The translations under genes and the position numbers were made by a program. A DNA stretch of 64,000 nucleotides from an uncultured Eubacterium sp. Its GTDB lineage: Bacteria; Bacillota; Clostridia; Lachnospirales; Lachnospiraceae. Positions 1 to 17,284 of this stretch are shown here, in pieces. The stretch spans positions 1 through 64,000 of the forward strand of contig CAMUML010000003.1 of NCBI GenBank assembly GCA_947089855.1. The letters run 5' to 3'. Under the pieces are notes generated by a model. It searched no databases, had not been told where the DNA came from, and saw only the letters and a list, made by a program, of their open reading frames with translations. Within the stretch, counting starts at the first letter, position 1; every line of letters starts with the position of its first letter.

Positions 1-28
1 TGTCTCAAAAAGTGTACTTTTTGAGACA
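1..28. repeat. Perfect 13-bp palindrome at window edge
   Basis: TGTCTCAAAAAGT, two bases, then its exact reverse complement. It could be the terminator of a gene left of the window or the tip of an F1-type palindrome, because the copy at 45,779-45,936 also ends in TTTTGAGACAG. The window edge prevents a decision. Confidence 0.6.
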
Positions 29-91: not shown

Positions 92-1420
92 ATGCCGACA
101 GCCAGGCCATGCAGGACTCTGCGGCAGCAGAATAAGGGGCCAATCCCGCCGGGCGATATGGAACGGCTATTAGATATTGCGAAAGACTGCTGTACCGTAA
201 AAAACTATGTATACCAACGCTATGGCGGCATTAAAAGCTTGCCGAAACTTTATCCAGGCTATACGGTTCAAAATGAAATGACAAATAGCGGCCTGCGGGA
301 GCAGCTTGGTATGCCGTCCGTGTATTTTTACTTGGCGATTTTTGATGCATTGGGCGATATTAAGGGCCAATGGGCCAGGACAAAAGCGGCGGTGCAGGTC
401 CGCTTAAAGCAGAATGAAAATTTTTCTGAGGAAGACAGGCACTACCTGCGCTTCTTATTAAAAGTAAACAATGCATTTGAGCAGGTGCTAAATGGCAAAG
501 CAGTATCGTTAAAGAAAGAACTCCAGGCGCAGTATGAAGCGCTTGCGGCCAGTACCAATACCGGGCAGCTGTGCCGTTGGTTATGCCGCCAGGTGCGCAG
601 GCACCATATAAAGCTGCATACAGATTTTGCCGAAGGGTTTTCCATGACAGAGCGTGCATACCGGTATGGCGACCACGGCATTTATATTTCGGCAAAGGAA
701 AAACGCAAGCGTATTTTTATACCGTTGACGGACAATTGCCAATATAAGCGGCAGCTTTCCGTCAGGCTTTACCCGGAAGAAGGTGGCATTGAGATCCGGG
801 TGCCTGTAGATATAGGAGTCCATCTACATCCGGACTATGAAAACCAGGTAGGCCTGGCATTTGGGATGCATACCATGCTGACGACGCAAGAAGGGCATAC
901 CTATGGGGAGAATCTAGGGGAGTACCAGTCTGCCTATACGGAATGGCTGCGTACACAGTCTGCCAGCTACCGGCGCAACAGGGGCAGCAACCCGGGGCGT
1001 AAGAAATACTATGCAAGGAAGCAGCGCTACGAAGGGCAGCTGCACAGCTACATCAACCAGGAGCTAAACCGTATGCTGAAAACAGAAAAGCCCAAAACCA
1101 TCTATATCCCGAAGCTGCCAAAGCCACAGGCAGGCGGCATAAATAAAAGGGCCAACTATGCGGCTACACTGTGGCAGCGGGGCTATATCCGCAAAAGGCT
1201 TGCACAAAAGTGCTTGGAGGAATCGGTAGAACTGGAGGAGGTCTTTGCGAAAGGCATCAGCAGCGGGTGCAGCCAGTGCGGTGCGGACGGTATCAAACAA
1301 GGGGGACAGTTTACTTGCCCTGTATGTGGTTTATGTGTACAGGAGAAAGTGAATACAGCCCGGAATGTAAAAAAACGTGGGCAGCAAGCCCAGGCCAGCA
1401 AATTGCATGGGAATCTATAG
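92..1420 (+). CDS. TnpB-like RuvC-dead protein (candidate TldR-type RNA-guided repressor)
   Basis: A 442-residue protein with the TnpB (IS200/IS605 OrfB) layout: N-terminal recognition region, then split RuvC and a zinc ribbon near the C-terminus (C393, C396, C409, C412). The three RuvC motifs align but every catalytic acid is replaced. RuvC-I reads VGLAFG, with A256 where Asp belongs. RuvC-II reads IYIPKL, with P340 where Glu belongs. RuvC-III reads QEKVNTARN, with K419 where Asp belongs. The frame is otherwise intact and the zinc ribbon and NTARN context are kept, so the protein looks maintained rather than decayed. No TnpA is present. Nuclease-dead TnpB homologues (TldRs) are known to act as guide-RNA-directed transcription repressors next to fliC or oppF; that role is inferred here. 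The start is uncertain: an upstream ATG at 72 encodes a plausible KGRYKPCR beginning but is out of frame. Confidence 0.85.
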   Translation: MPTARPCRTLRQQNKGPIPPGDMERLLDIAKDCCTVKNYVYQRYGGIKSLPKLYPGYTVQNEMTNSGLREQLGMPSVYFYLAIFDALGDIKGQWARTKAAVQVRLKQNENFSEEDRHYLRFLLKVNNAFEQVLNGKAVSLKKELQAQYEALAASTNTGQLCRWLCRQVRRHHIKLHTDFAEGFSMTERAYRYGDHGIYISAKEKRKRIFIPLTDNCQYKRQLSVRLYPEEGGIEIRVPVDIGVHLHPDYENQVGLAFGMHTMLTTQEGHTYGENLGEYQSAYTEWLRTQSASYRRNRGSNPGRKKYYARKQRYEGQLHSYINQELNRMLKTEKPKTIYIPKLPKPQAGGINKRANYAATLWQRGYIRKRLAQKCLEESVELEEVFAKGISSGCSQCGADGIKQGGQFTCPVCGLCVQEKVNTARNVKKRGQQAQASKLHGNL

Positions 1421-1665
1421 CAATACAAAACGGTCATAAAGGCAGCCGCCCAGATAAGCCTTGGCAGCCGCTGGGGCTTTACCGCAGGGACTGGGCAAAT
1501 GCCTATGATATATAAAAAACAGGCGGCATTAGAAGGCAGCAGGCAGCTGCGCATTGGGTATGCCAGGACCTTGTGAACATGCCAGGCAGCATGAGGTAGC
1601 AGGGAGCGAAGCAGGGATTTTGAACCCGCATTGCCTGGATACAGCAGGCAACCAATATATCTTAT
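1421..1665 (+). ncRNA. Candidate guide RNA region downstream of the dead TnpB
   Basis: About 245 bases without a convincing ORF, directly 3' of the TnpB-like gene, where omega/guide RNAs of TnpB and TldR proteins are encoded. The stretch is GC-rich and full of short inverted repeats. One is a GGG/CCC hairpin around 1,614-1,627. Another is a 7-bp stem, TTGCCTG with CAGGCAA, at 1,631-1,651. DNA becomes AT-rich right after 1,652. I cannot define the scaffold/guide boundary by eye, and no target match was established. Confidence 0.4.
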
Positions 1666-1727
1666 TGAACTATATATTTTATAGAACAGATTTATTTTAA
1701 TGGAAAGTCAAGGGAAAGGCGGACATT

Positions 1728-3035
1728 ATGCGCAGGGCAAAAAGGAAGATGGTATTAGAATTATTTGCATCGGTACAAAAAGCCCATGTGCTTCTTGGAA
1801 AATTGGAAGGCGCGGCAGGCCCGGAAAAGCAGGAGCTGTGTATGCTGTGCCAAAACAGCGCCATGCAGATTGGCAATGAAATCGAGTACTGGGAAGGGAA
1901 AGGTACACAGGCTGTTTCGCTCCTGGAAGCTTACTGTGAAGAAGTTTATCAGTATGCGCAGGGTAACCGGCCATTCAGCCAGCTGGAACAAAGCCTGTTG
2001 CGGGCAGAATTTATCTTCCGGGAAGAAATCCCGGCAGATAAATGGGAAGTGGTGTTCTTTCCATATAATGCGTCGATGTGGGACAGCCTGGCAAGTGTAT
2101 GGAAAGCTGCAGACCAGGATCCGGAATGCAATGCTTTTGTAGTGCCGATCCCGTATTTTGAAAAAAATCCAGACGGTTCCTTTGGGCGGATGCATTATGA
2201 AGGCGGGCAGTTTCCGCCAGATGTCCCGGTGGTCCATTGGGAAGCATACGATGTCAGGAGTCGTTTCCCAGATATTATTTTTATCCATAACCCATATGAT
2301 GAGCATAATTTTGTAACAAGTGTACACCCCGATTACTATGCCAGTGTGCTGAGAAATTTTACAGGCCATTTAGTATATATACCATATTATTTATATGTCA
2401 ATAACGCGGTGGGTCCCGATACGCTGCTTACAAGCGCGGCCTTATATGCGGATTATGTCATTATCCAATCGGAAGAATGCTGCAAAAAATGCATCCAAAT
2501 TTATGATGAATTTATAGAAGAAAATGGGTGCAAGGATATTTTAAAAACCGGCAAAGAAAAATTTCTGCCGTTAGGTTCGCCGATATTGGATGCCGCAGGT
2601 GCATCGCAAGGCGGGTATCCGGTTCCGGACAGATGGAAGGAGATTATCCGAAAGAAAGGCCCAGATGCGAAAATTGTGCTGTATAACACACATATCAGCG
2701 ATGTTATGGGGCCGAATGCCGCACGGTTTTTTCGAAAAATCCGGCAAGTATTAAAGGTATTTCAGTCTCAGGAACAGATTGTGCTGTTATGGCGGCCCCA
2801 TCCACTGACGTGGCAGACGATTCAATCGATGAATCCGGGGGCTTTGCAGGACTACCAGGCGATTGTAGATACTTACCGGCGGGAAGGGTGGGGGATTTAT
2901 GACGATACCCCGCAGATGTACCGGGCGGTGGCAATTTCGGATGCCTATTATGGGGATTGGAGCTCGCTGGTGACTTTGTTCCAGGAGGCGGGGAAGCCGG
3001 TGTTGATGCAGAATTTGGATATAATAGATAATTGA
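1728..3035 (+). CDS. CDP-glycerol glycerophosphotransferase-like protein
   Basis: A 435-residue cytoplasmic protein. The C-terminal third has the GT-B-like features of TagF/TarF polyol-phosphate transferases: LYNTHISD, then RPHPLT, then a D-x-Y-x-G-D-WSSL segment and the closing GKPVLMQN. The N-terminal ~90 residues are helical and unassigned. Family knowledge suggests transfer of glycerol-phosphate or a related group to a glycan; the substrate cannot be read. The protein stops just after the conserved NLDIID segment. The next gene begins with a propeller-like region that, from memory, is sometimes fused to such domains, so this may be half of a split protein. Base composition drops sharply right after the stop. 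Confidence 0.7.
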   Translation: MRRAKRKMVLELFASVQKAHVLLGKLEGAAGPEKQELCMLCQNSAMQIGNEIEYWEGKGTQAVSLLEAYCEEVYQYAQGNRPFSQLEQSLLRAEFIFREEIPADKWEVVFFPYNASMWDSLASVWKAADQDPECNAFVVPIPYFEKNPDGSFGRMHYEGGQFPPDVPVVHWEAYDVRSRFPDIIFIHNPYDEHNFVTSVHPDYYASVLRNFTGHLVYIPYYLYVNNAVGPDTLLTSAALYADYVIIQSEECCKKCIQIYDEFIEENGCKDILKTGKEKFLPLGSPILDAAGASQGGYPVPDRWKEIIRKKGPDAKIVLYNTHISDVMGPNAARFFRKIRQVLKVFQSQEQIVLLWRPHPLTWQTIQSMNPGALQDYQAIVDTYRREGWGIYDDTPQMYRAVAISDAYYGDWSSLVTLFQEAGKPVLMQNLDIIDN

Positions 3036-4310: not shown

Positions 4311-5429
4311 ATGAAATTAATTGTTTATGGTTTGGGAAGAGATTATGAAGAGCATGAAAAGTTTATTAGGGACAAATATGAAATTTTAGGTGTTTCAGAT
4401 TCTGATTTAAGTAAAGAAATTAAATACAATGATTTTATAAGAAAAGAAAATATATTAAATCTGGATTTTGATAAGATATTAGTTTGTAGTGAGGATTATT
4501 TTAAAGAAATTAAAAAAGACTTGATATGTTTAGGAATTGATGATCAAAAAATAATAGGTTTAGATGGAAATGTTATAAATTTGAAAGGAAGAGAACCTAT
4601 CATTGTTGTTAAATTAAGTGGCGGAATGGGAAATTTGATGTTTCAATATGCATTTTATTTAAAGCTCAAATTTAATAATATTAATACGCCTATTAAAGTC
4701 GATATTTCATTTTACTACCTGGAGCAAGTACCAGAAGCTTTTCAAATACCGTGGGTTTTTGAACGAATTTTTAATTTAAAACTCCCAATAGCTACACGGG
4801 AAGAAATTGCAGAAAGTAAACGACAAAAAAAGTATTATGAAAAAGAGCTATCTAGTTATGATAAGGAAGTAGCTGATATAAAAGCAGGATATATAGTGGG
4901 ATATTGGCAGACGGCAAAATATTTTAAAGGAATAGAAGGGCAAGTTAGAAAAACGTTTCGATTTGATTTAATGTACCTTTCAAACCGGCAAAAGACGATA
5001 TTAGAAAAAATCAATGGAAGTAAAAATTCCGTGGCAGTTTGGATAAGGCGTGGGGATTATGTAACATCAACAGAGATTAACTCCCTATATGGAAATATTT
5101 GCACAAAAGAGTATTATGACACTGCGATGGAATATATACGCCAAAAATATAAAACTGAAAATTTTTTTATATTTTCAAATGATTCAGATTATGTACAGGA
5201 AAACTATAAAAAATATCCATCAATGACATATGCAGATAATTCTACAGAATTTTGGGATATGAGTATTTATTTGATGTCGCAATGTGATCATATAATCATT
5301 TCTAATAGTACGTTTAGCTGGTGGGCGGCATGGCTGCATGAAAAGGATGGTATCATTATTAGCCCCAAAACATTTATTAATGGTTATACTACTCCTGATA
5401 TGTGGGAAAGAGAATGGATAAGGTTATAG
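4311..5429 (+). CDS. Alpha-1,2-fucosyltransferase (GT11) with N-terminal Rossmann-like module
   Basis: A 372-residue protein. Residues ~1-95 form a Rossmann-like module beginning KLIVYGLGRDYEEH. The remainder is a GT11 fucosyltransferase: GGMGNLMFQYAFYLKL at its start, the donor-binding motif IRRGDYV, a late STFSWWAAWL and a final ISP segment. GT11 enzymes transfer fucose from GDP-L-fucose in alpha-1,2 linkage. That fits Gmd and the Fcl-like reductase about 4-6 kb downstream. A closely similar paralogue lies at 13,950-15,081 but is frameshifted, so this is the only intact copy. A weak AAGGATG lies before the ATG. Acceptor unknown. Confidence 0.88.
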   Translation: MKLIVYGLGRDYEEHEKFIRDKYEILGVSDSDLSKEIKYNDFIRKENILNLDFDKILVCSEDYFKEIKKDLICLGIDDQKIIGLDGNVINLKGREPIIVVKLSGGMGNLMFQYAFYLKLKFNNINTPIKVDISFYYLEQVPEAFQIPWVFERIFNLKLPIATREEIAESKRQKKYYEKELSSYDKEVADIKAGYIVGYWQTAKYFKGIEGQVRKTFRFDLMYLSNRQKTILEKINGSKNSVAVWIRRGDYVTSTEINSLYGNICTKEYYDTAMEYIRQKYKTENFFIFSNDSDYVQENYKKYPSMTYADNSTEFWDMSIYLMSQCDHIIISNSTFSWWAAWLHEKDGIIISPKTFINGYTTPDMWEREWIRL

Positions 5430-5514
5430 ATTTGAAACAACCTGTATCAATTTCGTATGATTAAGAATGAATAATAATGAAATAGGCAGGCATTAAAGCG
5501 AAAAGAGGAAAGAT

Positions 5515-6252
5515 ATGTTAGACGTTGTAAAACAAAAAAGGACAGCTTTAATTATCGGAGGTACAGGGGGTATTGGTAAGGAAGTAATAAAAGCTTTTGT
5601 AAATGCAGATTATCAGGTCTTTTTTACTTATTATAAAAATCATAAGGAAGCTGAAGATTTAGAAAAAAAATACTTTGCAAAAGGCTATCAAGTTGATATT
5701 TCCAATATAGCAGATATAAAGAAGCTATTAGCGGAATTTTGTTTAGATACTTCTAATTTAGATGTTCTGATTTACTGTACAGGTATTTTCGAAGACTCTT
5801 TGATTGAGAATATGTCATTTGAAAGTTGGAATAGAGTTATATCTGTAAATTTGACGGGAGCTTTTTTGTGTGCCCAGGTTATGATTCCTTTATTAAGGAA
5901 AAGCGGTCATGGAAGGTTTCTATGTATTGGATCAGTGATGGGTGAAAGTGGCATATATGGATCATGTAGTTATAGTGCGTCCAAGGCAGGATTAATCGGT
6001 TTGGTAAAAAGCATTGCTTTGGAAAATGCAAAATACGGAGTTACTGCGAATGTGGTTTCACTTGGGTATATTGATACAGGAATGACAAAACAACTATCTA
6101 CTAAAGTACTGGATTATGCAGTAAAGAAGATTCCTATGGGAAAGTTTGGGTCAGCAGAGGATGTTGCAAGAATGATTGTTGACTTGAGTGAAGAACATAC
6201 AGATTATTTTTCTGGCCAGGTTATCAGGATAAACGGGCTACTTTACTTATAG
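5515..6252 (+). CDS. SDR-family 3-oxoacyl reductase (FabG/PhaB-like)
   Basis: A 245-residue short-chain dehydrogenase. It has the cofactor motif GGTGGIG near the N-terminus, the catalytic YSASKAG (Y-x-x-x-K) in mid-protein, and the C-terminal SGQVIRINGL typical of FabG. The family reduces 3-oxoacyl-ACP or acetoacetyl-CoA to the 3-hydroxy form with NAD(P)H. A thiolase follows 35 bases downstream and an acyltransferase after that. I therefore infer reduction of acetoacetyl-CoA to 3-hydroxybutyryl-CoA for decorating a sugar rather than fatty acid synthesis. RBS AGAGGAAAG. Confidence 0.85.
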   Translation: MLDVVKQKRTALIIGGTGGIGKEVIKAFVNADYQVFFTYYKNHKEAEDLEKKYFAKGYQVDISNIADIKKLLAEFCLDTSNLDVLIYCTGIFEDSLIENMSFESWNRVISVNLTGAFLCAQVMIPLLRKSGHGRFLCIGSVMGESGIYGSCSYSASKAGLIGLVKSIALENAKYGVTANVVSLGYIDTGMTKQLSTKVLDYAVKKIPMGKFGSAEDVARMIVDLSEEHTDYFSGQVIRINGLLYL

Positions 6253-6287
6253 GTTAGATAAAAATTTTGATTAGGGGTAATTAACAG

Positions 6288-7463
6288 ATGGCAAAAAGTG
6301 TAGTTGTTAGTTATGCAAGAACTCCTTTTGGCAAGCAGGGAGGGAATCTGGCATCAGTAAAAGCTGTTGATCTAGGGGCAGTGGCTTTAAGGGCAGCGGT
6401 GCAAAAGTGTAACATGAATCCAGATGAAATAGATATGGCGATTATAGGCCAGGCGATTCCAGGAGGGTGTGGCCAGATACCAGCACGCCAAGCTGTATTA
6501 AAAGCCAAACTGCCTGCATCACTTCCTGTTGATGCAGTCAATAAAGTATGCGCGTCAAGTATCAGGGCGGTTACCTTAGCGGATCAGGTTATTCGTTCCG
6601 GAGATGCCAAAATCATATTGACCGGCGGTATGGAAAGTATGAGTAACGTGCCGTTTGCTTCCTTTGACATGAGAAAAGGACGTAAAATGTTTAATACGGA
6701 ATTTGTAGATTTAATGGTAAAAGATGGTTTGTGGGATCCTTTTTATGACTGCCATATGGCAGTACATGGCGGGAAAGTGGCATCGGAATATAATATTACA
6801 AGGGAAATGCAGGATCAATGGGCAGTTGGAAGCCAAAAGAAAGCGCAAAATGCGATTAAAAAGGGATATTTGTGTGAAGAAATTGTACCTGTATTTATTG
6901 GCGACAATAAGTTTATTGAAATGGATGAAGCCCCTAGGGCAGATTCTACAATTGAAAAACTTAGGAAGTTAAAGCCTTTGTTTGTTGAAAATAATACGGT
7001 TACACCAGGAAATGCACCTGGAACAAGTGATGGGGCTTGTGCGTTGCTTATTATGGAACAGTCTGAGGCAGAAAGAAGAAATATAAATTATGAGGCTGTT
7101 ATTCTTGGACACGCTATGTATTCTGAAGATCCTCAGTATATAGCAACGGTGCCCGGACATGCTATTTTTAAACTGCTAAAACAAATGGATCTACAAGTTA
7201 CAGATATAGATCTTTTTGAAATAAATGAAGCTTTTGCAGCCGTAACGCTTGTAAGTGGAAAAATGCTTGGGTGTGATATGGAAAAGGTAAATGTAAATGG
7301 AGGTGCAATTGCTTATGGGCATCCACTTGGTGCATCTGGTGGGAGGATATTAATGTCGCTGATAGGAGAGTTAAAACGGAGGCACTTAAAATACGGAGTT
7401 GCAGCAATTTGTAGTGGAACTGGGCAAGGGGATGCGGTCTTAATCGAAAATTGCCAAAGGTAA
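6288..7463 (+). CDS. Thiolase (acetyl-CoA acetyltransferase)
   Basis: A 391-residue thiolase of full family length. The nucleophile is C88 (NKVCASS), followed by NEAFAA, the catalytic His at ~345 in GHPLGASGG, and the second Cys at ~375 in ICSGTGQGD. The last motif normally reads CxGGGQG, so Ser and Thr here are a mild variation. The family condenses two acetyl-CoA to acetoacetyl-CoA. Its position between a ketoacyl reductase and a left-handed-helix acyltransferase inside a sugar locus suggests that it supplies a C4 acyl donor. No butyrate-pathway genes are nearby. Confidence 0.9.
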   Translation: MAKSVVVSYARTPFGKQGGNLASVKAVDLGAVALRAAVQKCNMNPDEIDMAIIGQAIPGGCGQIPARQAVLKAKLPASLPVDAVNKVCASSIRAVTLADQVIRSGDAKIILTGGMESMSNVPFASFDMRKGRKMFNTEFVDLMVKDGLWDPFYDCHMAVHGGKVASEYNITREMQDQWAVGSQKKAQNAIKKGYLCEEIVPVFIGDNKFIEMDEAPRADSTIEKLRKLKPLFVENNTVTPGNAPGTSDGACALLIMEQSEAERRNINYEAVILGHAMYSEDPQYIATVPGHAIFKLLKQMDLQVTDIDLFEINEAFAAVTLVSGKMLGCDMEKVNVNGGAIAYGHPLGASGGRILMSLIGELKRRHLKYGVAAICSGTGQGDAVLIENCQR

Positions 7464-7492
7464 GCGGAATGTCAGATCTATGGGAGGCTAGA

Positions 7493-8071
7493 ATGGAAGG
7501 GTATTTATCACAAGATGAATTAAAAAAAATAGGATTTAGGAATTTAGGCGAACATGTGCTAATTAGTGAAAAATGCAGTATATATGGAGCTGAACTAATT
7601 TCGATCGGTAATTATGTTAGAATAGATGATTTTTCAATGCTTGTAGGTAATATTGAAATCAAGAATTTCGTACATATATCGCCGTATTGTGGAATTCATG
7701 GTACTGGTGGCGGGAAAGTAGTCTTTGAAGACTACACAGGACTGTCAGCGGGTGCCATGGTATATGCGGCGAGTGATGATTATAGCGGATGTTACATGAC
7801 AAATCCAATGATTCCTGACAAGTTTAGAAAGGTGAAAGCTTGTGATATTTATATCAAAAAACATTCTGTAGTCGGAATTAAGTCTGTATTGCTGCCTGGT
7901 GCATATCTGGATCAAGGGACTGCTGTTGGGGCAATGAGCCTTGTGGTAAGTAGGACAGATCCGTGGTGGATTTATGCTGGTATCCCTTGCAAAAGGATAA
8001 AAAAGCGTAGCCAAAAGGCATTGGAATTAGAAAAAGATTTTATGGAATCAGCGATTCATTATGAGGGGTAA
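7493..8071 (+). CDS. Left-handed beta-helix acyltransferase
   Basis: About 192 residues with hexapeptide-repeat strands (SIYGAELISIGNYVRIDDFSML, then KVVFEDYTGLSAGAMV, VVGIKSVLLPGAYLDQG) ending in the usual YAGIPCKRIKKR. This is the WbbJ/Maa-type CoA-dependent O- or N-acyltransferase fold. The ATG at 7,493 is preferred because GGGAGG lies 5 bases upstream; a TTG at 7,451 or ATG at 7,469 would overlap the thiolase. As the last of the thiolase-reductase-acyltransferase trio it is the natural candidate to place a 3-hydroxybutyryl (or acetyl) group on a sugar. The acyl specificity is inference. Confidence 0.8.
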   Translation: MEGYLSQDELKKIGFRNLGEHVLISEKCSIYGAELISIGNYVRIDDFSMLVGNIEIKNFVHISPYCGIHGTGGGKVVFEDYTGLSAGAMVYAASDDYSGCYMTNPMIPDKFRKVKACDIYIKKHSVVGIKSVLLPGAYLDQGTAVGAMSLVVSRTDPWWIYAGIPCKRIKKRSQKALELEKDFMESAIHYEG

Positions 8072-8074
8072 AAG

Positions 8075-8992
8075 ATGGTATTAGTTACAGGTGCTACAGG
8101 TTTTTTAGGGAAGCGGGTATGCAGGAAATTGGAGGCATCCGGTACGGAGTATGTAAAAACATCGTTAAGTTTGGGGGTTGATCTGCGAAGCCTAAGTCAG
8201 ACGATGGATCTATTCCAGGAAGTACAGCCGGAGTATGTACTGCATTGTGCTTCGCATGTGGGTGGGATCCAGTTTGGGGCAAAGCACCCGGCGGAAATGT
8301 ATTACGACGGGCTGCTGATGCAGGCCAACCTGTTAGAAGCGTGCAGCCGGAACCATGTAAAACGGCTGGTCAACCCGATTTCCAACTGCGCGTACCCTGC
8401 AGATGCAAGGCTGTTCCGTGAAGATGGGTTTTGGGATGGCCCGCTACATAGTTCTGTGCTTGTTTATGGGATGGTACGCAAGATGTCTTATGTCGGCTCT
8501 GTTGCATACCGGAGCCAGCATGGGCTGGATACCGTCAACCTGGTATTGTCTAATATGTATGGCCCGCAGGATCATTTTGAGGAAGAACGTTCCCATGCAT
8601 TGGGCGCCCTGGTTATGAAATTTGTACATGCGAAAGAAAACCGGCTGCCGTCTGTCTGCGTGTGGGGAAGTGGTAAACCTGTGCGCGAATGGCTGCATGT
8701 AGACGACGGGGCGGAAGCAATGGTAAGGGCAATGGGTATTGCCCCGTTCCCTGGGCCTATTAACATTGGGGTTGCCCGCGGCATTTCCATTTGGGGTCTG
8801 GCAGTTATGGTTAAGGAGGCGGTTGGGTACGGGGGCGAAATCGTACTGGATCCGTCAAAGCCGGATGGGGCACCATATAAGACAGTGGATGGGAGCCTTG
8901 GCGAAAAGCTTTTTGGCTGGAAGCCGCAGACCCCGTTGCGGCAGGGGGTAGTGGAAACCGTAGAATGGTACCTTGCAAACCATGAATCTTAA
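8075..8992 (+). CDS. GDP-L-fucose synthase-like extended SDR
   Basis: A 305-residue NAD(P)-dependent epimerase/reductase. It has GATGFLG at the N-terminus and NPISNCAYP in the place of the Fcl GSSCIYP strand. The catalytic-Tyr segment reads YGMVRKM, and MYGPQDHF and VREWLHVDD follow. The layout is that of Fcl/WcaG, which makes GDP-L-fucose from the Gmd product. In the usual Y-x-x-x-K the fourth residue after Tyr is Arg here, with Lys one position later, so activity or register may differ. It starts 3 bases after the acyltransferase. GDP-fucose is needed by the GT11 enzymes on either side. A related GDP-sugar epimerase is the alternative. Confidence 0.7.
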   Translation: MVLVTGATGFLGKRVCRKLEASGTEYVKTSLSLGVDLRSLSQTMDLFQEVQPEYVLHCASHVGGIQFGAKHPAEMYYDGLLMQANLLEACSRNHVKRLVNPISNCAYPADARLFREDGFWDGPLHSSVLVYGMVRKMSYVGSVAYRSQHGLDTVNLVLSNMYGPQDHFEEERSHALGALVMKFVHAKENRLPSVCVWGSGKPVREWLHVDDGAEAMVRAMGIAPFPGPINIGVARGISIWGLAVMVKEAVGYGGEIVLDPSKPDGAPYKTVDGSLGEKLFGWKPQTPLRQGVVETVEWYLANHES

Positions 8993-9005
8993 GGGAGGCA
9001 GCAGG

Positions 9006-9404
9006 ATGGAGGAGATCGTAAAGGGCGGAAAGACCCTTGCAAGGCATATTTTCCCGGAAGATATAAGGGAAGGCCTTAATTTCTTTTCGCAGGAAGGGGA
9101 ATATATCCAGGCGGGGGCATGGAACTACCCAGGCGGGAAGGAGCTTTTGGCACATATCCATAAAAAAGTGCCGCGGACGGCCATGCGGACCTATGAGGTA
9201 TTATATGTAATAAGTGGTTCGCTGCAGGCAACGGTTTATGACCTTGATGGGGCCGTAGCTGGGGAATGGGAAGTAAAAAAAGGTGAGGTGCTTATCCTGC
9301 TGGAATCCGGTCACGGGTATAAAATATTGGAAGATGGAACGAAAGTGCTGGAAGTAAAAAATGGCCCGTACCTTGGCGCGGAAGCCGACAGGTACCGCAT
9401 CTGA
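9006..9404 (+). CDS. Small cupin-like protein
   Basis: About 133 residues with a beta-rich cupin-like core (EVLYVISGSLQATVYD, then GEVLILLESGHGYKIL). The start at 9,006 is chosen for GGGAGG 8 bases upstream; the longer frame would overlap the preceding gene. Metal-binding His residues are not clearly conserved. Cupins of this size in sugar loci include epimerases, isomerases and acyl-transfer helpers. I cannot assign a reaction. Confidence 0.6.
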   Translation: MEEIVKGGKTLARHIFPEDIREGLNFFSQEGEYIQAGAWNYPGGKELLAHIHKKVPRTAMRTYEVLYVISGSLQATVYDLDGAVAGEWEVKKGEVLILLESGHGYKILEDGTKVLEVKNGPYLGAEADRYRI

Positions 9405-9426
9405 CTGGAAAAGGGGGAGTGGGCAA

Positions 9427-10521
9427 ATGGAATTTATAGCGCAGATGGAGCCATCCTTTGATGAAAAGGAGCGGCTGGCAATGGACAGGTATATGTCGTC
9501 GGGCGGCTGGCTGATGGAATTTGAAAAGACAAGGGAATTTGAACGCATGGTTGCAGCATATACAGGTGCGGCATACTGCTCGGCCATGCCAAACGGTACC
9601 ATTAGCCTAGTGGCTGCCCTGCTGGCATGCGGGGTAAAGCCAGGCGATGAAGTAATCGTTCCAGACTATACGATGGTTGCAACCCCAAATGCGGCAGAGC
9701 TGATCGGGGCAAAGGCAGTATTTGTGGATATAGAGCCCGATACGCTCTGCATGGATTTTGAGGGGATGAAACATGCAGTGACGGAAAAAACGAGGGCAGT
9801 AATATTTGTTTCCATCAATGGGAGGTCGCCAGCCAACCTGGAAGAATTCACAGTATTTTGCAAAGGGCATAATATATGGCTGGTGGAGGATGCCGCGCAG
9901 TCCTTGGGCAGCAGGTGTGGCGGGAGGCATCTTGGGACATTTGGCGACATCGGCAGTTTTTCATTTTCTGTGCCAAAGGTTATCACAACGGGCCAAGGCG
10001 GCGCGTTGATAACAAATAATGAAGAGTTGGCTGGGCGTATCAAGAAAATCCGTGATTTTGGGCGTGCAGGCGGTGGCAGCGACCATTACCTGGTAAAAGG
10101 GTGGAACTTTAAGTTTACAGACCTGCAGGCGGTCATTGGCATAGAGCAGATGAAAAAGCTTCCAGGGCGTATCGCGCGCAAAAAGGAAATGGGTGCTGTT
10201 TACCAGGAGAACCTGCAGGGTATCCCAGGGATAAGGCTTGTTCCAACAGACTTGGGGCAGACGGCACCGTGGTTTTTTGATATTTTATGCAGGGAAAGGG
10301 AAAAATTGTATGTGTACCTTAAGGAGCATGGGATAGGTAGCCGTGTATTTTACCCACCACTCCACGCAGAGCCAGCATATGGGCGAAAGGGGGATTTCCC
10401 AGTGGCTGAAAAGATAGCAGCAGAAGGATTATGGCTGCCGTCTTCCATTACTTTGAAAGATAGCCAGATTACATATATCTGTAATACGATACGGGAATTT
10501 TATGAAACGGAAGGGGCATAA
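9427..10521 (+). CDS. DegT/DnrJ/EryC1/StrS aminotransferase, GDP-perosamine synthase-like
   Basis: About 364 residues. It has PLP-enzyme features: the [10 protein letters not shown] strand, the Schiff-base lysine in [14 protein letters not shown], and the [17 protein letters not shown] segment. The N-terminal MEPSFDEKE...SSGGWL resembles PerA, which makes GDP-perosamine (GDP-4-amino-4,6-dideoxymannose) from the Gmd product. The ATG at 9,427 follows AAGGGGGAG and is preferred over an upstream start inside the cupin gene. Gmd starts 5 bases after its stop and ManC follows, a strong argument for a GDP-sugar substrate. The exact amino sugar is inference. Confidence 0.8.
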
Positions 10522-10526
10522 AGGCA

Positions 10527-11567
10527 ATGGATAAGACCGCATTGATCACTGGTATTACAGGCCAGGATGGCTCCTACTTAGCGGATTTCCTGTTAGAAAA
10601 AGGGTACCAGGTACATGGCCTGGTACGTAGGAACAGCCTGCCCAACACACAAAGGATCCATCATATTTTAAATTCAAAATATAACAATGTAAAATTTTTC
10701 CTCCACTACGCAGACATAGCGGATTCTGGGTGCCTGGTACGTTTGATCGGCCAAATAAATCCAGATGAAGTATATAACCTGGCGGCACAGTCCCATGTAG
10801 GCATTTCTTTTGATATGCCTGAGTATACTGCGCAGGTAACGGGTGTATCTACGGTCAGGCTGTTAGAGGCAGTAAGGGCAAGCGGCAAAGATAGCCGGTT
10901 TTACCAGGCATCGACGTCAGAATTGTTTGGTGGGCTAAAGGATACTGCACCACAGAATGAAAGCACCCCTTTTTATCCGAAAAGTCCATATGGGGCTGCA
11001 AAATTGTATTCTTATTGGATAACCGTTAATTACCGGGAATCTTATGATATGTATGCCTGTAATGGGATTTTGTTTAACCATGAATCTCCTAGGCGTGGTG
11101 AAAATTTTGTTACCAGGAAAATTACGCTTGCTGTAGCAAATATACTTGCTGGCAGGCAGGAAAAATTGTCGCTTGGGAACTTAGACGCCAAACGTGACTG
11201 GGGGTTTGCAGGAGATTATGTGGAGGGGATGTGGCTTATGCTCCAGCAGCCGCTGCCAGGGGATTATGTGCTGGCAACAAATGAAACACATACCGTACAG
11301 GAATTTGCCCAGGCAGCATTTCAGGTAGCAGGCATTACCCTGTGCTGGGAAGGAAGCGGAATCAATACAAAAGGGTATGATAAACAAAACGGGCGGCTGC
11401 TGGTAGATATTGACCCTGCTTTATATAGGCCAGCAGAAGTGGAGCTTTTGTGGGGCGACCCAGCAAAAGCAGAACATAAGCTGGGCTGGAGGAGAAACGT
11501 AAGTTTTTCCAACCTTGTTGAAATGATGGTTGAATCGGATATCAAAATGGTAAATTCTGTAAAATAA
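10527..11567 (+). CDS. gmd: GDP-mannose 4,6-dehydratase
   Basis: A 346-residue Gmd of usual length. Visible features are the cofactor motif [35 protein letters not shown], the catalytic STSELFG and [10 protein letters not shown], and [17 protein letters not shown]. It converts GDP-mannose to GDP-4-keto-6-deoxymannose, the branch point for GDP-fucose (via the Fcl-like gene) and GDP-perosamine (via the aminotransferase just upstream). It is tightly packed between the aminotransferase and manC. Confidence 0.96.
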
Positions 11568-11598
11568 GCAACCGTACTAATGAGAGGCAGGCTATGTA

Positions 11599-12909
11599 AT
11601 GAATATCGTACTATTGTCGGGCGGGTCTGGAAAACGTTTATGGCCACTTTCCAATCATGTGCGTTCCAAACAGTTTATAAAAATATTCCGCAAAGCAGAC
11701 GGTTCTTATGAGTCAATGCTGCAAAGGATGTACCGTCAGATTCTTCAGGCTGATCCTGGGGTGTCTGTTACTATTGCTGCACCAAAAGAGCAAGTTTCTG
11801 TAATACATAACCAAATTGGGGATGGGGTTCCTTTATGCTTGGAACCATGCCGCCGGGATACATTTCCAGCGGTTGTGCTTGCGTCTGCTTTCCTGCATGA
11901 CCAGCAAGGGGTTTCAGCGGAAGATGCAGTTGTATTTTGCCCAGTGGATCCATATGTAGAACCCGAATATTTTTTAACGTTGAAGGAATTAGGAAACTTG
12001 GCGGCTATTGGGGATGAAAGCCTAGTACTGCTTGGTATTGAACCAGATTATCCAAGTGAGAAATATGGATATATTATACCAGAAGGGAGTGGGGAACGGG
12101 TTGGTGTGCGTATGTTCAAGGAAAAACCGGGCCGGAAGGAAGCGGAGGGCTATATCCGCCAGGGGGCGCTCTGGAATGGGGGAGCATTTGCATTCCGGTT
12201 GGGATATGGGTTGAAAAAAGCACAGGAACGGATTGGTTTTTCTGATTATGAAACCCTGTCCAGAAAATACGGGGAACTTGAAAAAACTAGTTTTGATTAT
12301 GCGGTTGTGGAAAAAGAAAAAAGTATCCAGGTAGTAAGGTTCCGTGGATATTGGAAAGACCTTGGGACATGGAATACATTGACAGAAACGATGTCGGAAT
12401 ATGTTATGGGGGACGCTGTATTAAGCAGCAGGTGCCAAAATGTCCATGTGGTTAATTCATTAGACATACCTGTTTTGTGTATGGGTTTAAAAAATGCTGT
12501 AGTTGCAGCAGGCCCTGATGGTATTTTAGTATCTGATAAAGAAGAATCCAGCTATATGAAGCCATATGTTGAGGAATTGGACAAACAGGTGCGTTATGCG
12601 GAGAAATCGTGGGGCAGTTACCATGTACTGGATGCTGGGGTTGGCAGCTTAACTGTGAAAGTTACGTTGAATGCAGGCCGACGGATGAACTACCATAGCC
12701 ATGAACGCAGGGATGAGGTATGGATTGTTCTTTCGGGGAAGGGGGCTGCGGTTGTGGATGGGGCAAAACAGATTGTATATACTGGAGATATAGTTAAACT
12801 TCCAGCAGGGTGCAAGCATACGATTGTTGCTGAAACAACGTTACAAGTTATTGAGATACAGCTTGGTGAGGAAATTAGTATACAGGATAAGAAAAAATTT
12901 AATTTTTAA
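11599..12909 (+). CDS. manC: Mannose-1-phosphate guanylyltransferase with C-terminal type II isomerase cupin
   Basis: A 436-residue protein. The N-terminal pyrophosphorylase domain has LSGGSGKRLWPLS and the FKEKPGRKEA signature. The C-terminal cupin has WGSYHVLD, then YHSHERRDEVWIVLSGKG, typical of the mannose-6-phosphate isomerase half of bifunctional ManC/AlgA. It makes GDP-mannose for Gmd. Slightly shorter than many bifunctional enzymes (~470), so isomerase activity is likely but not certain. The gene closes the GDP-sugar block; after its stop the DNA becomes AT-rich. Confidence 0.92.
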   Translation: MNIVLLSGGSGKRLWPLSNHVRSKQFIKIFRKADGSYESMLQRMYRQILQADPGVSVTIAAPKEQVSVIHNQIGDGVPLCLEPCRRDTFPAVVLASAFLHDQQGVSAEDAVVFCPVDPYVEPEYFLTLKELGNLAAIGDESLVLLGIEPDYPSEKYGYIIPEGSGERVGVRMFKEKPGRKEAEGYIRQGALWNGGAFAFRLGYGLKKAQERIGFSDYETLSRKYGELEKTSFDYAVVEKEKSIQVVRFRGYWKDLGTWNTLTETMSEYVMGDAVLSSRCQNVHVVNSLDIPVLCMGLKNAVVAAGPDGILVSDKEESSYMKPYVEELDKQVRYAEKSWGSYHVLDAGVGSLTVKVTLNAGRRMNYHSHERRDEVWIVLSGKGAAVVDGAKQIVYTGDIVKLPAGCKHTIVAETTLQVIEIQLGEEISIQDKKKFNF

Positions 12910-12949
12910 TCAATAGAGTTACCTTTTGGGCTGTGTTTGGAGGAAATCT

Positions 12950-13945
12950 ATGCGGATATATATTTTTGGTGTAGGGGAAGGAAATAATATTGTACGGAAT
13001 TGTTTAAAAAGGAAAGCAGTGATCTGTGGATATATTGATAACAATCAAGCCTTACATGGGCAAAAAATGCATGGGAAAGAAATTGTCGGCCTTCATAGTA
13101 TTAGTAAAAATTATGACGTGATCCTTATATCAATTCAAAAATATCATGCTGTTTATAGCCAACTGCTGAGTGCAGGGATTGAGAAAGAAAAGATCCTGTG
13201 CTTTTATTCCATTTATAGTATTTTTGATAAAAGGTTCCGTAGCTTGTTTAATTTGAGAGATTGGAAAAAAGCAGTATACCATTATAATAGGAAGCGTGTG
13301 AAGCAGTTTTTTTCTCCTTTAGACCCTTATATTAGGGCATCTAATAAATGGATAAATGAACGTGGCGATCAAATATACCGCCTGAATTATGATCTGGATC
13401 CAGAATCAGTCGTATATGATTTGGGTGGCTACCACGGCGATTTTACGCAGGCAATGGTTGATAAATATCATTGCTATGTATGGGTTTTTGAGCCTGTACC
13501 TAAATTTGCAGATTCCATTAAAGAAAGGTTTAAGGACGATCCAAAAGTACATGTATTTTGTATGGGTTTGGCGGAAAAATCATCAAATGAGATATTGTAT
13601 TTTGACGAAGATGGTAGTTCTGTATACAAAAAGGGAAGCCATCATCAAATGAAAATCAAATATTATGCTGCAAAAAAATTTTTTAGAGAACATAAAGTAA
13701 CAAATATAGACTTGATGAAAATTAATATAGAAGGAGGAGAATATGCTTTATTAGAACATCTGATACAAACAGGCGATATAAAGAAAATTAAGAATATACA
13801 AGTACAGTTTCATAATATACCTGGAATACATGCGTGGTACCGGATGATTAAGATATGGATAAAATTGGATTATACACATTATGTAACTTGGAAGTTTAGG
13901 CCATACATATGGGAAAATTGGAGGAAGAGGGTAAACAGGCAATAA
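12950..13945 (+). CDS. FkbM-family methyltransferase with N-terminal Rossmann-like module
   Basis: About 331 residues. Residues 1-90 are a Rossmann-like module (RIYIFGVGEGNNIV, then CGYIDNN). The second half is an FkbM-type SAM methyltransferase: VVYDLGGYHGDFT is the SAM-binding loop, FEPVP follows, and MKINIEGGE is the family's acidic motif. FkbM enzymes O-methylate sugars or other small hydroxyls. The start at 12,950 is set by GGAGGA 5 bases upstream. The next gene begins 4 bases after its stop. The target hydroxyl is not known. Confidence 0.82.
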   Translation: MRIYIFGVGEGNNIVRNCLKRKAVICGYIDNNQALHGQKMHGKEIVGLHSISKNYDVILISIQKYHAVYSQLLSAGIEKEKILCFYSIYSIFDKRFRSLFNLRDWKKAVYHYNRKRVKQFFSPLDPYIRASNKWINERGDQIYRLNYDLDPESVVYDLGGYHGDFTQAMVDKYHCYVWVFEPVPKFADSIKERFKDDPKVHVFCMGLAEKSSNEILYFDEDGSSVYKKGSHHQMKIKYYAAKKFFREHKVTNIDLMKINIEGGEYALLEHLIQTGDIKKIKNIQVQFHNIPGIHAWYRMIKIWIKLDYTHYVTWKFRPYIWENWRKRVNRQ

Positions 13946-13949
13946 CAAT

Positions 13950-15081
13950 ATGAATGATAAACTTAACATTATAGTTTACGGTCTTGGAAGGGATTATTGT
14001 GAACACAAAGAATTTATTGAAAATAAGTATGAAGTGATAGGGGTAACTGATTCTGATTTGAGTAAAAAAACGGAATATAGTAATTTTATCATAAAAGAAG
14101 ATTTATTGAATCTGGATTATGATCGTGTATTGATTTGCAGCGAAAATTATTATGACGAAATAAAAGCAGATCTGGTTGGTCTTGGGATAGATAGACATAA
14201 GATTATTGGGTTGGATGGAAATGTGGTTCATTTGAAAAATAGGGATCCAATTATTGTAGTTAAATTTATGGGCGGAATGGGAAATTTGATGTTCCAATAT
14301 GCATTTTATTTAAAGTTAATGATAAAAAATACCGGGATTCCAGTTAAAGCAGATATTTCATGGTATTTTTTGGAAAGTTCTGTTTCTGCTTTTCAAGTTC
14401 CTTGGGTTTTTGAACGTATTTTCAATTTGAAACTTCCAATAGCTACCATAGAAGAAATTGCAGAAAGCAGACGGCAAGAAAAGTATTTTGAAAAGGAACT
14501 GTCCAGTTATGATCAAAAGGCAGCAAATATCAATGCAGGATATATAAGCGGATATTGGCAGACTTCAAAATATTTTGAAGAGGTTGAAAAGGAAGTTAGA
14601 AAAGCATTTCAGTTTGATCCTAGGTATCTTTCAAATCGGCAAAAAAAAAATATTGGAAAAAATTAATGAAAGCAGAGATTCCGTAGCAGTATGGATTAGG
14701 CGTGGGGATTATGTGACTTCAAAAGAAATTAATGCTTCACATGGTAATATATGTTCCAAAGAGTATTACGATACTGCAATGGAATATATTCGTAAGAAGT
14801 ATAAAACGGATAATTTTTTTATATTTTCTAATGACCATGCCTATGTACAAGAATATTATAGCAAATATCCATCTATGACATATGAGGTTCATTCAACAGA
14901 ATTTTGGGATATGAGTATTTATTTGATGTCACAATGTGACCATATTATTATTTCAAATAGTACGTTTAGCTGGTGGGCTGCGTGGCTGCATAAAAAGATG
15001 GGTACTATTATCAGCCCAGATAAATTTATAAATGGCCATGCGACTCCTGATATATGGGAACAGGGATGGCTGCGGTTTTAA
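13950..15081 (+). pseudogene. Second alpha-1,2-fucosyltransferase (GT11), frameshifted at an A10 run
   Basis: A paralogue of 4,311-5,429 with the same layout: an N-terminal IVYGLGRDYCEH Rossmann module, GGMGNLMFQYAFYLKL, IRRGDYV and STFSWWAAWL. It is split into two frames (13,950-14,666 and a second frame running to 15,081). The break is at ten A residues (14,641-14,650), where the intact copy reads aaaag. Removing one A restores a continuous ~376-residue protein (QKKILEKIN). It may be a real null, a phase-variable or slippage-corrected gene, or a homopolymer read error. Everything downstream of the run is otherwise conserved, which suggests a recent or reversible event. Confidence 0.85.
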
Positions 15082-15106
15082 TTGCATTTGGGAGAGATGT
15101 AAAAGG

Positions 15107-16012
15107 ATGGATAGCAAAGAAATAGAAATAGGCAGATATTGGGATAAACAACAAAAAGAAAAGGTTCAAAAAGCAGGCTGCAGGTTACGGTGGTGGGATT
15201 CGCCGCATATAATCCGGCATTATAATTATAGAGCCTGTGGTAAATATCTGGATGGATGGAATGCGGGGCCATTGCAGATATTGAACTGTATAAAAAATGA
15301 TGCCTGTTTGCAATCCGCAATTTCTATAGGGTGCGGTACAGGGACAAAGGAAATGATGCTGATCGAACAGGGTATTGTCAAAAAATTTATATGCTATGAA
15401 TTATCAGGGCAGCGTATTATAGAAGGCAAAAGGATTGCAGCAGAAAAAGGTATTTCCGATGCGATTGAATTCCATTTAGGTAATTTTTTTTCATCAGATG
15501 ACAATTTAGCTGGAAAGTATGATTTGATTTTTTGGGATAATAGTATCCACCATATGTTGGACACTAGAAGTGCAGTTAGACGTTCAAAAGAAATCTTAAA
15601 AGATGGGGGCTTCTTTTTTTGTAATGATTTTGTAGGTGCCAATAGGTTCCAATGGACGGAGCTGGAATTGGCAATTATAAATGGTATTAGGCTGCAATTG
15701 CCAGAAGATATATTCCAGTCAGGCAACAAAAAATTAAAGCGGTTTGTCCAAAGGCCGGATTTAGATAAAATGATGCAGACGGATTATTCAGAAGCGGCAG
15801 ATTCAGAAAATATCATTCCGTCGGTACAGGATGTATTTCAAGATCCTTTGATTCGGAATATAGGAGGCGTTATTTTTCATACCTGTTTAAATGATATTTT
15901 ACAAAACATACCAGAAAACAGTATATTATTAAATCATTTATTATCTTTGGATGCAGAAGCAGCAGATCATGGTTTTAGCCAATATGCATTTGTTTTGGCA
16001 CAAAAAAAATAA
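15107..16012 (+). CDS. SAM-dependent methyltransferase
   Basis: About 301 residues with a class I methyltransferase core: SIGCGTGTKEMML (motif I), YELSGQRIIEGKRIA (motif II), DLIFWDNSIHHML (motif IV) and ILKDGGFFFCNDFVG. The start at 15,107 is chosen because the longer frame runs into the preceding gene; AGGAT lies next to the start. It lies between the frameshifted fucosyltransferase and a family 2 glycosyltransferase on one strand, so a sugar or glycan methylation role is likely. Substrate unknown. Confidence 0.75.
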   Translation: MDSKEIEIGRYWDKQQKEKVQKAGCRLRWWDSPHIIRHYNYRACGKYLDGWNAGPLQILNCIKNDACLQSAISIGCGTGTKEMMLIEQGIVKKFICYELSGQRIIEGKRIAAEKGISDAIEFHLGNFFSSDDNLAGKYDLIFWDNSIHHMLDTRSAVRRSKEILKDGGFFFCNDFVGANRFQWTELELAIINGIRLQLPEDIFQSGNKKLKRFVQRPDLDKMMQTDYSEAADSENIIPSVQDVFQDPLIRNIGGVIFHTCLNDILQNIPENSILLNHLLSLDAEAADHGFSQYAFVLAQKK

Positions 16013-16027
16013 TACAAAAGGAAAAAT

Positions 16028-17284
16028 ATGGAAAAAGTTCTAATTTCGGTAATTGTGCCAGTATACAACCGGGCAGATACTATTAGAAGGGCGATCAATG
16101 GGATCTTACAACAGACCTATCAAAATTTGGAAGTAATCATTATTGATGATGCGTCTAAGGATTTCACAGATAAAGTAATTGCATCAATAGATGATGCACG
16201 TATTCGATATGTTAGAAATGAAAACCAGCAAGGTGCCAATATTTCAAGGAATATCGGATTAGGATATGCGCTAGGCCGTATCATTGCTTTTTGTGACAGT
16301 GCAGATATATGGATGGCTGATAAATTGGAAAAACAACTGGCACAGCTAAAAAATGAAAATGCAGATATTGTTTTCTGTGCAGAAAAAGTTTTTGTAAAAG
16401 ATACATCCTACATCCTTCCTTTTGCGACACAAAAAGCGTTCATTGAACAAGGCAGGCTTGCGGAACAATTAGCAATTGAAAATTGTGTAGATACATCCAC
16501 ACTTTTTGTGAAGCGGAAGTGCTTTGAGGAAGTTGGCAAATTCAATTTAGAATTGCCAAGGCTTCAAGAATATGAGTGGATGATACGGGCGGTTCAAAAA
16601 TGCAAGGTCAGTTATTTGGATGAAGTACTGGTCCATGCATTTATCAGGGACGACAGTATTACTTCTGACATTTCAAAACTTTTAAAAGCAGTACCAGTTT
16701 TATATAGGGAACATGCTAATTTTTTTGCTTCCTATCAAAAACAGTTTGACCTGCTTTTATCCCCGGTGAAACAGTTGAATCTAAAAAATGCATCATATGA
16801 TGATTATGAAAAGTATTTTCAGTTGCTGGAAGAAACAGTGTCAGGGTTTTATGAAAAGGATGCCATACAATTTTATCAGGAAGTGGCCCGTTTTTTTGTT
16901 GAGAAAGATTATATACGGAACTTTATTGCGGATGAGGCACAAAAAAAACATACCTTTTTACGTTTATTAGAAAATCAAGAACAAGAATTCTATTTGTTCG
17001 GAGCTGGAGAAGCAGCAAGGAAATTATATAGCTTTCTAAAAGGAAAATTTATGGAACATGCTATAAAAGCGATTATTGTTTCTTCTACAAAAAATAATTC
17101 TAAAGCAGATTTTCAAGTTCCGATGTTCGAAATTTTACAATGCGATGAAAAAATTAAGCAGAAACCAGTAATTTTAGCTGTTTCTAAAAATGCAGTTTAT
17201 GATGTTGTATGTAGATTAAGGCGGAATGGTTTTACATATATTATCTGCCTAACCGACCAGGAATGGCAAATAGTAGAAGGATAG
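16028..17284 (+). CDS. Family 2 glycosyltransferase with C-terminal Rossmann-like module
   Basis: A 418-residue protein. Residues 1-~220 are GT2: SVIVPVYNRADTIRRAI, IIDDASKDFT, and CDSADIW in place of the usual D-x-D. There is an EYEWMIRAVQ acceptor-side motif. Residues ~325-418 are a Rossmann-like module beginning EFYLFGAGEAARKLYSFL. The middle is helical. The donor sugar cannot be read. In DxD the first Asp is retained in an S-A-D-I context. The next gene starts 4 bases after the stop and begins with the same type of Rossmann module. Confidence 0.82.
   Translation: MEKVLISVIVPVYNRADTIRRAINGILQQTYQNLEVIIIDDASKDFTDKVIASIDDARIRYVRNENQQGANISRNIGLGYALGRIIAFCDSADIWMADKLEKQLAQLKNENADIVFCAEKVFVKDTSYILPFATQKAFIEQGRLAEQLAIENCVDTSTLFVKRKCFEEVGKFNLELPRLQEYEWMIRAVQKCKVSYLDEVLVHAFIRDDSITSDISKLLKAVPVLYREHANFFASYQKQFDLLLSPVKQLNLKNASYDDYEKYFQLLEETVSGFYEKDAIQFYQEVARFFVEKDYIRNFIADEAQKKHTFLRLLENQEQEFYLFGAGEAARKLYSFLKGKFMEHAIKAIIVSSTKNNSKADFQVPMFEILQCDEKIKQKPVILAVSKNAVYDVVCRLRRNGFTYIICLTDQEWQIVEG

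Follow-up and report, generated by a model that had tools for sequence, protein, structure and literature searches.

Nuclease-dead TnpB homologues and an adjacent RNA at switchable glycan operons of Lachnospiraceae: possible RNA-guided regulators

Work by Wiegand in 2024 reportedly describes TldRs, TnpB-like and nuclease-dead repressors that come in fliC and oppF types. A different kind of regulator is found in Bacteroides, where phase-variable capsule loci carry UpxY/UpxZ. These capsule loci resemble the one described here in having an invertible promoter, a regulator as the first gene and several glycan loci per genome. Their regulator is however not derived from TnpB, and it comes without an RNA of the kind found here.

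PMC13418256 describes TldRs as TnpB-like nuclease-dead repressors that silence genes by means of a guide. From Oscillibacter and Flavonifractor, the same source describes csrA-tldR loci that have hin, promoter inversions of about 120 bp and a predicted cross-targeting of flagellin genes. Cas12m, according to PMC10442227, has a RuvC domain that does not cut double-stranded DNA, and silences by binding; it shares a non-cutting RuvC with the family below, but is CRISPR-associated.

The window is the whole stretch of 64,000 nucleotides that was analysed. Near its start lies a gene that is like TldR in three ways: a TnpB-derived protein minus its RuvC acids, an adjacent structured RNA, and a tie to surface genes. 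Unlike the TldRs, its family sits at glycan operons and not at fliC or oppF, which is a comparison of settings. Also unlike them, it has semi-conserved guides, and candidate sites inside the regulated operons where it may bind DNA.

As in the csrA-tldR loci, the bacteria are from the gut and a Hin-type promoter inverton precedes the gene of a dead TnpB, with several loci per genome; for those loci cross-targeting is predicted. The differences from that description are the glycan genes and a second type of recombination site with a tyrosine recombinase. Relative to known TldRs, the glycan loci, the second switch type and a possibly code-like guide may be new. No report of a dead TnpB at glycan loci was found in the literature searched, which was short of most subscription papers and preprints.

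The reading preferred here, and one that we think reasonably probable, is that phase-variable glycan operons are regulated by an RNA-guided, TldR-like protein, derived from a domesticated TnpB of the IStron kind.

The features of the window are as follows.

2..27, no strand: 26-bp Hin-like (serine-invertase type) recombination site with 12-bp arms and a GT/AC core, like the site pairs at three other copies in the same genome
92..1420, plus: nuclease-dead TnpB-derived protein (A256, P340, K419), from the open reading frame, profile matches, family alignment and TnpB mapping
1455..1671 (about), plus: structured RNA, read as a homologue of the TnpB omega/guide RNA
1553..1557, plus: ATTGG, 5' half of a proposed pseudoknot, invariant
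1652..1656, plus: CCAAT, 3' half of the proposed pseudoknot and scaffold end, corresponding by eye to the CCAG end of the L242/L243 RNA
1657..1676 (may begin at 1656), plus: putative guide, from the RNA end boundary in the dead family and in L242/L243
1728..3035, plus: next gene, cluster c1, 435 aa, no Pfam match
2372..2388, plus: AGTATAT and a target-like 10-mer inside c1 (codons for VYIPYY), a possible target, possibly a coding coincidence
4311..5429, plus: glycosyltransferase family 11 gene
5515..17284, plus: co-directional genes, a subset of which was tested

The protein and its family

The frame at 92-1420 has 442 codons on the plus strand, starts with ATG and has no internal stops. Its protein passes the cut-off of the Pfam profile Cas12f1-like_TNB (31 bits against 26.3) and stays below that of NCBIfam guided_TnpB (50.4 bits against 100), which makes it a diverged relative of TnpB. 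Similarity and an intact Cys4 zinc ribbon place it in the TnpB superfamily, with guided_TnpB matching below cut-off only. The RuvC Asp-Glu-Asp that would make it a TnpB nuclease is absent.

The RuvC positions were mapped on three TnpB-like records, titled 'transposase IS605 OrfB', 'IS607 family transposase ISCARN1' and 'zinc ribbon domain-containing protein'. In all three, A256 aligns opposite Asp and P340 opposite Glu. K419 is opposite Asp in the Calothrix protein and opposite Gln in the two Thermus proteins. Because both Thermus proteins have Gln there, the third position by itself is not diagnostic; going by this alignment, the third acid is not fixed across all TnpB-like proteins. At the neighbouring position 418, 66 of 81 relatives have Glu, and the others vary.

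The genome has four dead-tnpB copies. The other three are intact, and 65-69% identical to the one in the window. Two more TnpB-like partial frames, reaching contig ends, were seen in this genome (G000 C6:103270 and C36:46715, L001 and L002).

Scanning genome contigs gave 172 relatives, 80 of which were kept for analysis. Their titles name Lachnospiraceae, Dorea, Sporofaciens, Schaedlerella, Acetatifactor, Hungatella and others, and some say just Clostridia, Clostridiaceae or bacterium. Whole genomes with relatives, the present one included, number 2 of 13 in the genus sample, 18 of 397 in the family sample and 4 of 391 in the class sample; two of these last four keep intact RuvC acids. Sporofaciens musculi has seven full-length dead-tnpB copies (5.4-Mb contig).

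Phage and plasmid collections yielded three remote matches each, and viral contigs one relative with the whole module. This IMG/VR contig (L236) has a recombinase-like frame, a dead TnpB with N, P and K at the three positions, the RNA and a c1-like gene.

Among 81 aligned proteins, position 256 is Ala in 57 and Ser in 24. Position 340 is Val (49), Pro (23), Ala (5), Ile (3) or Met (1), and position 419 Lys (76), Arg (4) or Gly (1). None has an acid at any of the three. A second, partly overlapping set of 74 proteins has no acid there either, with 5, 4 and 5 rows gapped at the three positions and the L132 and L144 rows apparently misaligned.

A dead active site is also what a decaying transposon relic without function would have. 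That explanation is hardly credible here. In each of the 80 kept loci the frame stays open for 1200 nt or more from the match start, dN/dS is about 0.1 (0.064-0.161 in the 13 pairs tested), and the copies share a covarying RNA and a common setting. Judged by these values the family is under purifying selection, and since the RuvC substitutions are common to it, they are not due to chance or decay. An inactivated RuvC in a gene kept by selection is also what characterises TldR.

The earlier note, made on this sequence alone, had described an intact 442-codon TnpB-like frame with A256, P340 and K419, and a kept zinc ribbon. Frame reading and alignments confirm the first, and all four cysteines are present in the window protein and in 81 of 81 aligned proteins. 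The note mentions neither the recombination site at 2-27 nor the structured RNA at about 1455-1671. The note had proposed a check on whether relatives share substitutions and neighbours. The loss of RuvC acids, the RNA, sugar-related genes and purifying selection are indeed all common to them. Scattered decaying copies without conserved neighbours, the case that would have spoken against the note, were not seen; what was found instead is purifying selection and a shared setting.

The RNA and its intact counterparts

The core of the RNA, at 1522-1671, scores 132.8 bits with a covariance model (R1) that has the window among its own sequences, and this is the model's only match in the window. All 81 sources, of which 16 were in the training set, contain a match to the model, and this is always 3' of the gene. 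The RNA lies directly downstream of the gene in 80 of 80 loci, and the model found none elsewhere in 1.43 Mb at E ≤ 0.01. A search of the four own loci with Rfam gave sub-threshold matches at palindromes alone, with none at the RNA and no RF00028. In L043 (11456-11828) and L049 (11716-12050) the RNA match comes in two pieces, as with large insertions in variable hairpins.

A structure of 46 pairs on an 18-row alignment has 92.5% of its cells paired, and 20 of its pairs changed on both sides. Such both-side changes occupy 76 cells, versus 27.6 when shuffled and at most 21 when the structure is slid. The structure that RNAalifold proposes has both-side changes in 20 of 39 pairs. The proposed ATTGG/CCAAT pseudoknot is without covariation support because its sequence is invariant. 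The end motif of the RNA, which is CCAAT followed by variable letters and usually TTATT, was found in 82 of 84 loci.

The closest intact relatives found are L242 and L243, in which the GID, E and D motifs are present by eye. A permissive search finds a group I intron (RF00028) at 720-1500 of L242, at 67.9 bits and above the family threshold. An Rfam gathering search of L242 and L243 with fast filters had no match and missed that intron. L243 has, by eye, a similar intron-like stretch. Given the intron and this similar stretch, both look like IStrons. By eye, their insertions are in a dUTPase-like gene and a response-regulator gene, both after GGAG. PMC4227781 describes a group B of IStrons with insertion sites that end in GG, and L242 and L243 are probably of that group.

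The IStron-like TnpBs L242 and L243 differ from the dead family in keeping their RuvC acids and, for L242, in the group I intron. They are like it in RNA landmarks and in the putative guide boundary. By eye, their 3' RNA and that of the dead family have TACGG..TAG, TGG..CCAAGAC and GCGAA in common. In both relatives the RNA ends in AACCAG, and as the two copies diverge from there on, a guide would start after it. This end appears to correspond to the CCAA(T) of the dead family, whose guide position had first been reached from recurring k-mers at the RNA end, before L242 and L243 were seen.

The covariance model scores the L243 RNA at 12.4 bits (E 0.0088), its best match, which is at the expected place and weak. 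The L242 RNA, at the expected place too, comes third at 7.1 bits (E 0.27), a score that taken alone is not significant. We propose that the dead family descends from a TnpB of the IStron kind that was domesticated in Lachnospiraceae.

Two kinds of switch upstream

The window contig starts at the site at 2-27; the promoter segment and the left site are outside of the window. In the three other copies of this genome, the gene is preceded by a 102-bp segment with an inverted 26-bp site on either side. The site at 2-27 is accordingly labelled here, by its likeness to those pairs, as the putative right-hand site of an invertible promoter. A matching site stands at the end of contig C64, which is probably the left flank of the window locus. 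As the window begins at a site and C64 ends in one, the fourth segment was probably lost in an assembly gap.

Counts were taken over the 75 relatives with at least 300 nt of upstream sequence. With a strict rule, 46 of these have Hin-like pairs upstream, versus 0 of 2482 control windows. With a relaxed rule, 59 have such pairs around the promoter segment, versus 5 of 2482. Spacings of the relaxed pairs are mostly 127 or 137-138 bp. The spacings cluster near 127, 137-138 and 146-149 bp, which is about one helical turn apart.

The inner segments align with one another in both orientations. Within one genome, L036 and L047 share their whole 112-bp segment at 96% in reverse, and 160 bp at 94% in reverse, within a region that is otherwise collinear in the plus sense at 84%. 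By alignment, seven loci have the minority orientation (L047, L054, L061, L078, L089, L092 and L112), and a TTGAC-type promoter, in those where one can be recognised, is directed at the gene. At the three own loci the segments are in the majority orientation, with the promoter pointing away from the gene.

Scoring promoter direction by motif is crude, and over 59 loci gives 32 away, 8 towards and 19 undecided; grouping by alignment was therefore preferred. Paired inverted 26-bp sites in both orientations, which define a Hin-type promoter inverton, are present, where the promoter is called by motif alone and the orientations come from comparing loci, not from reads of one strain.

In seven loci a recombinase gene of cluster c18 lies directly upstream. 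The member tested matches PF00239 and has its catalytic domain at the N-terminus, unlike the TnpA of IS607.

Some candidates were put aside. L066 and L068 were dropped as proof of inversion because L066 has an inverted piece of gene upstream, perhaps an assembly artefact. Fold-backs in L093, L095 and L067 were likewise excluded as proof, yet retained in the pair counts. Upstream in L066, L067, L093 and L095 there are inverted copies or fold-backs around the promoter segment that may be assembly artefacts. Elsewhere in the genome, on G000 contig C8, the stretches 5268-6310 and 10433-15421 of L033 have a recombinase gene (PF00239) and then an inverted TATCAAAAAGTGTACTTTTTGATA-type site pair. This pair precedes genes that include, by eye, an EssC-like protein, possibly a phase-variable type VII secretion locus.

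Sixteen loci lack Hin-like pairs. Ten of them have inverted TTCGCAGA-N9-TCTGCGAA pairs instead, a site for which no control windows were counted. The other six divide into two with a single site of this type and four with neither. Pairs are 1.4-1.5 kb apart in nine loci and 0.4 kb in L062, and 8 of the 10 surround a gene of cluster c12, a tested member of which is a tyrosine recombinase (PF00589).

In L080, L090, L101 and L115 the cassette gene is on the minus strand and the promoter faces the operon; in L077, L085 and L109 the gene is on the plus strand and the promoter faces away. Gene direction and promoter motif thus agree with a flip of the whole cassette in the seven loci that have both. 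Since Hin-like and TTCGCAGA-N9-TCTGCGAA switches both front dead-tnpB operons, two unrelated switches appear to converge on one operon type.

So tight a linkage to inversion modules could also mean that the dead TnpB is an accessory factor of promoter inversion, acting on the recombinase instead of on transcription. This is very improbable: the dead tnpB goes with site types of two unrelated kinds, the guide-like sites are on its downstream side, and upstream regions are without guide matches. In a count over 76 loci, 8- to 11-mers of the guides were not enriched in the upstream regions of their own loci.

The operons, the guides and their candidate targets

The gene after the RNA belongs to cluster c1 in 39 of 82 loci. 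In the window, the genes tested between 5515 and 17284 include a thiolase, an epimerase, a DegT aminotransferase and a GDP-mannose dehydratase, and also a nucleotidyltransferase/mannose-6-phosphate isomerase, a methyltransferase and a glycosyltransferase of family 2. Plus-strand frames continue to at least 22230, those beyond 17284 as open reading frames alone. In relatives too, the genes after the RNA are mostly glycan and sugar-related.

The linked csrA and fliC of csrA-tldR loci were not found by a motif scan for CsrA-like or flagellin-like frames in 85 sequences (1.55 Mb), a scan that diverged genes could escape. The suggestion in the earlier note of a TldR-like domestication beside a glycan locus, away from fliC and oppF, is supported by the conserved sugar genes and by the lack of flagellin-like frames in that scan.

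This layout brings up the main rival to RNA-guided regulation. Factors of the UpxY or LoaP type let polymerase pass into long operons. A dead TnpB might do something similar in cis, as an antiterminator or attenuator: it would bind its RNA on the nascent transcript, and polymerase would pass into the glycan operon, with no DNA targeting at all. The RNA does sit between the dead tnpB and the next gene. Of 80 loci with such a next gene, 79 have it on the strand of the dead tnpB, and there is a median of 8 co-directional genes of at least 150 aa per locus. The sequence after the RNA is in part like an ordinary leader, and no target of the guides was found in the own genome. We nevertheless regard cis antitermination as unlikely, for it leaves unexplained why the RNA ends at the guide boundary of intact relatives, and why guide-like sites are confined to the plus strand behind a GT[AT]TAT flank.

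Those sites are among the grounds for the preferred reading of RNA-guided regulation. After CCAAT, the 82 loci have 18 distinct guide 10-mers; the loci are not independent, as the guides are built from these few. From 17 to 260 nt after the RNA the 10-mers have 15 plus-strand matches and a single minus-strand one; elsewhere, in 1.26 Mb, they have 80 and 69. Directly before the match, GT[AT]TAT is present in 11 of the 15 plus-strand cases near the RNA, and GT.TAT in 12 of the 80 elsewhere. By the time this test was designed, the first of these sites were already known.

Between RNA and next gene there are 12 such intergenic sites, in 10 of the 82 loci; most loci have none. Over 12 genomes the site pattern occurs at 25 places, including 13 just 3' of dead-tnpB genes and on the same strand, and a reversed control pattern at 12. 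Outside dead-tnpB loci the pattern is at control level (12 versus 12), and the comparison is partly circular as these very sites had served to build the pattern.

In loci with c1 after the RNA, a site of similar sequence falls within codons for a VYIPYF-like motif, which may be coincidence. The shared motif is real, but only 1 of 43 c1 sites matches its own guide over 10 nt and there is no same-genome preference, and the c1 sites are kept as possible targets. The window's own guide matches its c1 site at 8 of 14 positions, and no target for it was found in the own genome.

Known TldRs silence genes through a guide (PMC13418256), and guides vary between loci here. The protein could accordingly repress, in the manner of a TldR, unrelated targets at other places in the genome, with the downstream sites as remnants or decoys. 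This is quite unlikely. Searching the whole own genome with the four RNA ends gave a convincing target for none of the four own guides; the best match besides the RNAs themselves is 22 nt at 91% (E 0.2). The repertoire is also narrow, and 18 distinct 10-mers in 82 loci fit a shared target.

The sites were compared with the guides of their own locus and of sister loci in the same genome. The first set holds 12 intergenic sites from ten loci, and none of them agrees with the guide of its own locus over 10 nt. Same-genome sister guides do so in 8 pairs, at 5 of the 11 sites that are in multi-locus genomes. Permutation gives a mean of 2.45 pairs, with p 0.005 for the number of pairs and p 0.05 for that of sites; when 11 nt are required, these become 0.08 and 0.17.

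Taking all loci of 12 genomes, with guides readable in 34 of 44 loci and 15 sites, there are again 8 sister pairs at 5 sites and 0 of 15 self matches. The sister excess is not significant in this set (p 0.11 for pairs and 0.23 for sites). There is no clear excess of guide matches at 12-16 nt in same-genome loci either: 0.70 versus 0.54 hits per pair at 12 nt, and equal numbers at 14-16 nt.

The longest sister match at an intergenic site is 13 nt, in S. musculi, and at a c1 site 14 nt (guide of L106, site of L091). The guides of S. musculi form a directed chain, in which L169 points to L170 and L172, and these two point to L173.

Since own guide and site never match over 10 nt at the intergenic sites and sister guides sometimes do, silencing of sister operons is the likeliest use of the system. 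It is a suggestive lead and not proof. In such a scheme, a promoter that faces its operon would lead to protein and RNA being made together with the glycan enzymes. The protein-RNA complex would then bind DNA, via the 3' end of the RNA, at GT[AT]TAT plus about 10-13 nt. There it would block transcription without cutting. Sister glycan operons would be silenced, and the cell would be biased towards one coat.

One form of this is an RNA-guided commutator, where the short seed of a guide matches the roadblock site of sister operons and not its own, and the active operon silences the others. This version is possible, though we would stop short of calling it probable.

A dead TnpB and its RNA at switchable operons suggest, as far as comparative sequence data go, an RNA-guided choice of surface coat. 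If this is true, a TnpB has been domesticated to arbitrate between the switchable surface coats of gut bacteria, and its guide would resemble a short code more than a free spacer. RNA-guided silencing would then be joined to DNA inversion, and there would be a testable answer to how several phase-variable glycan loci are coordinated in one cell.
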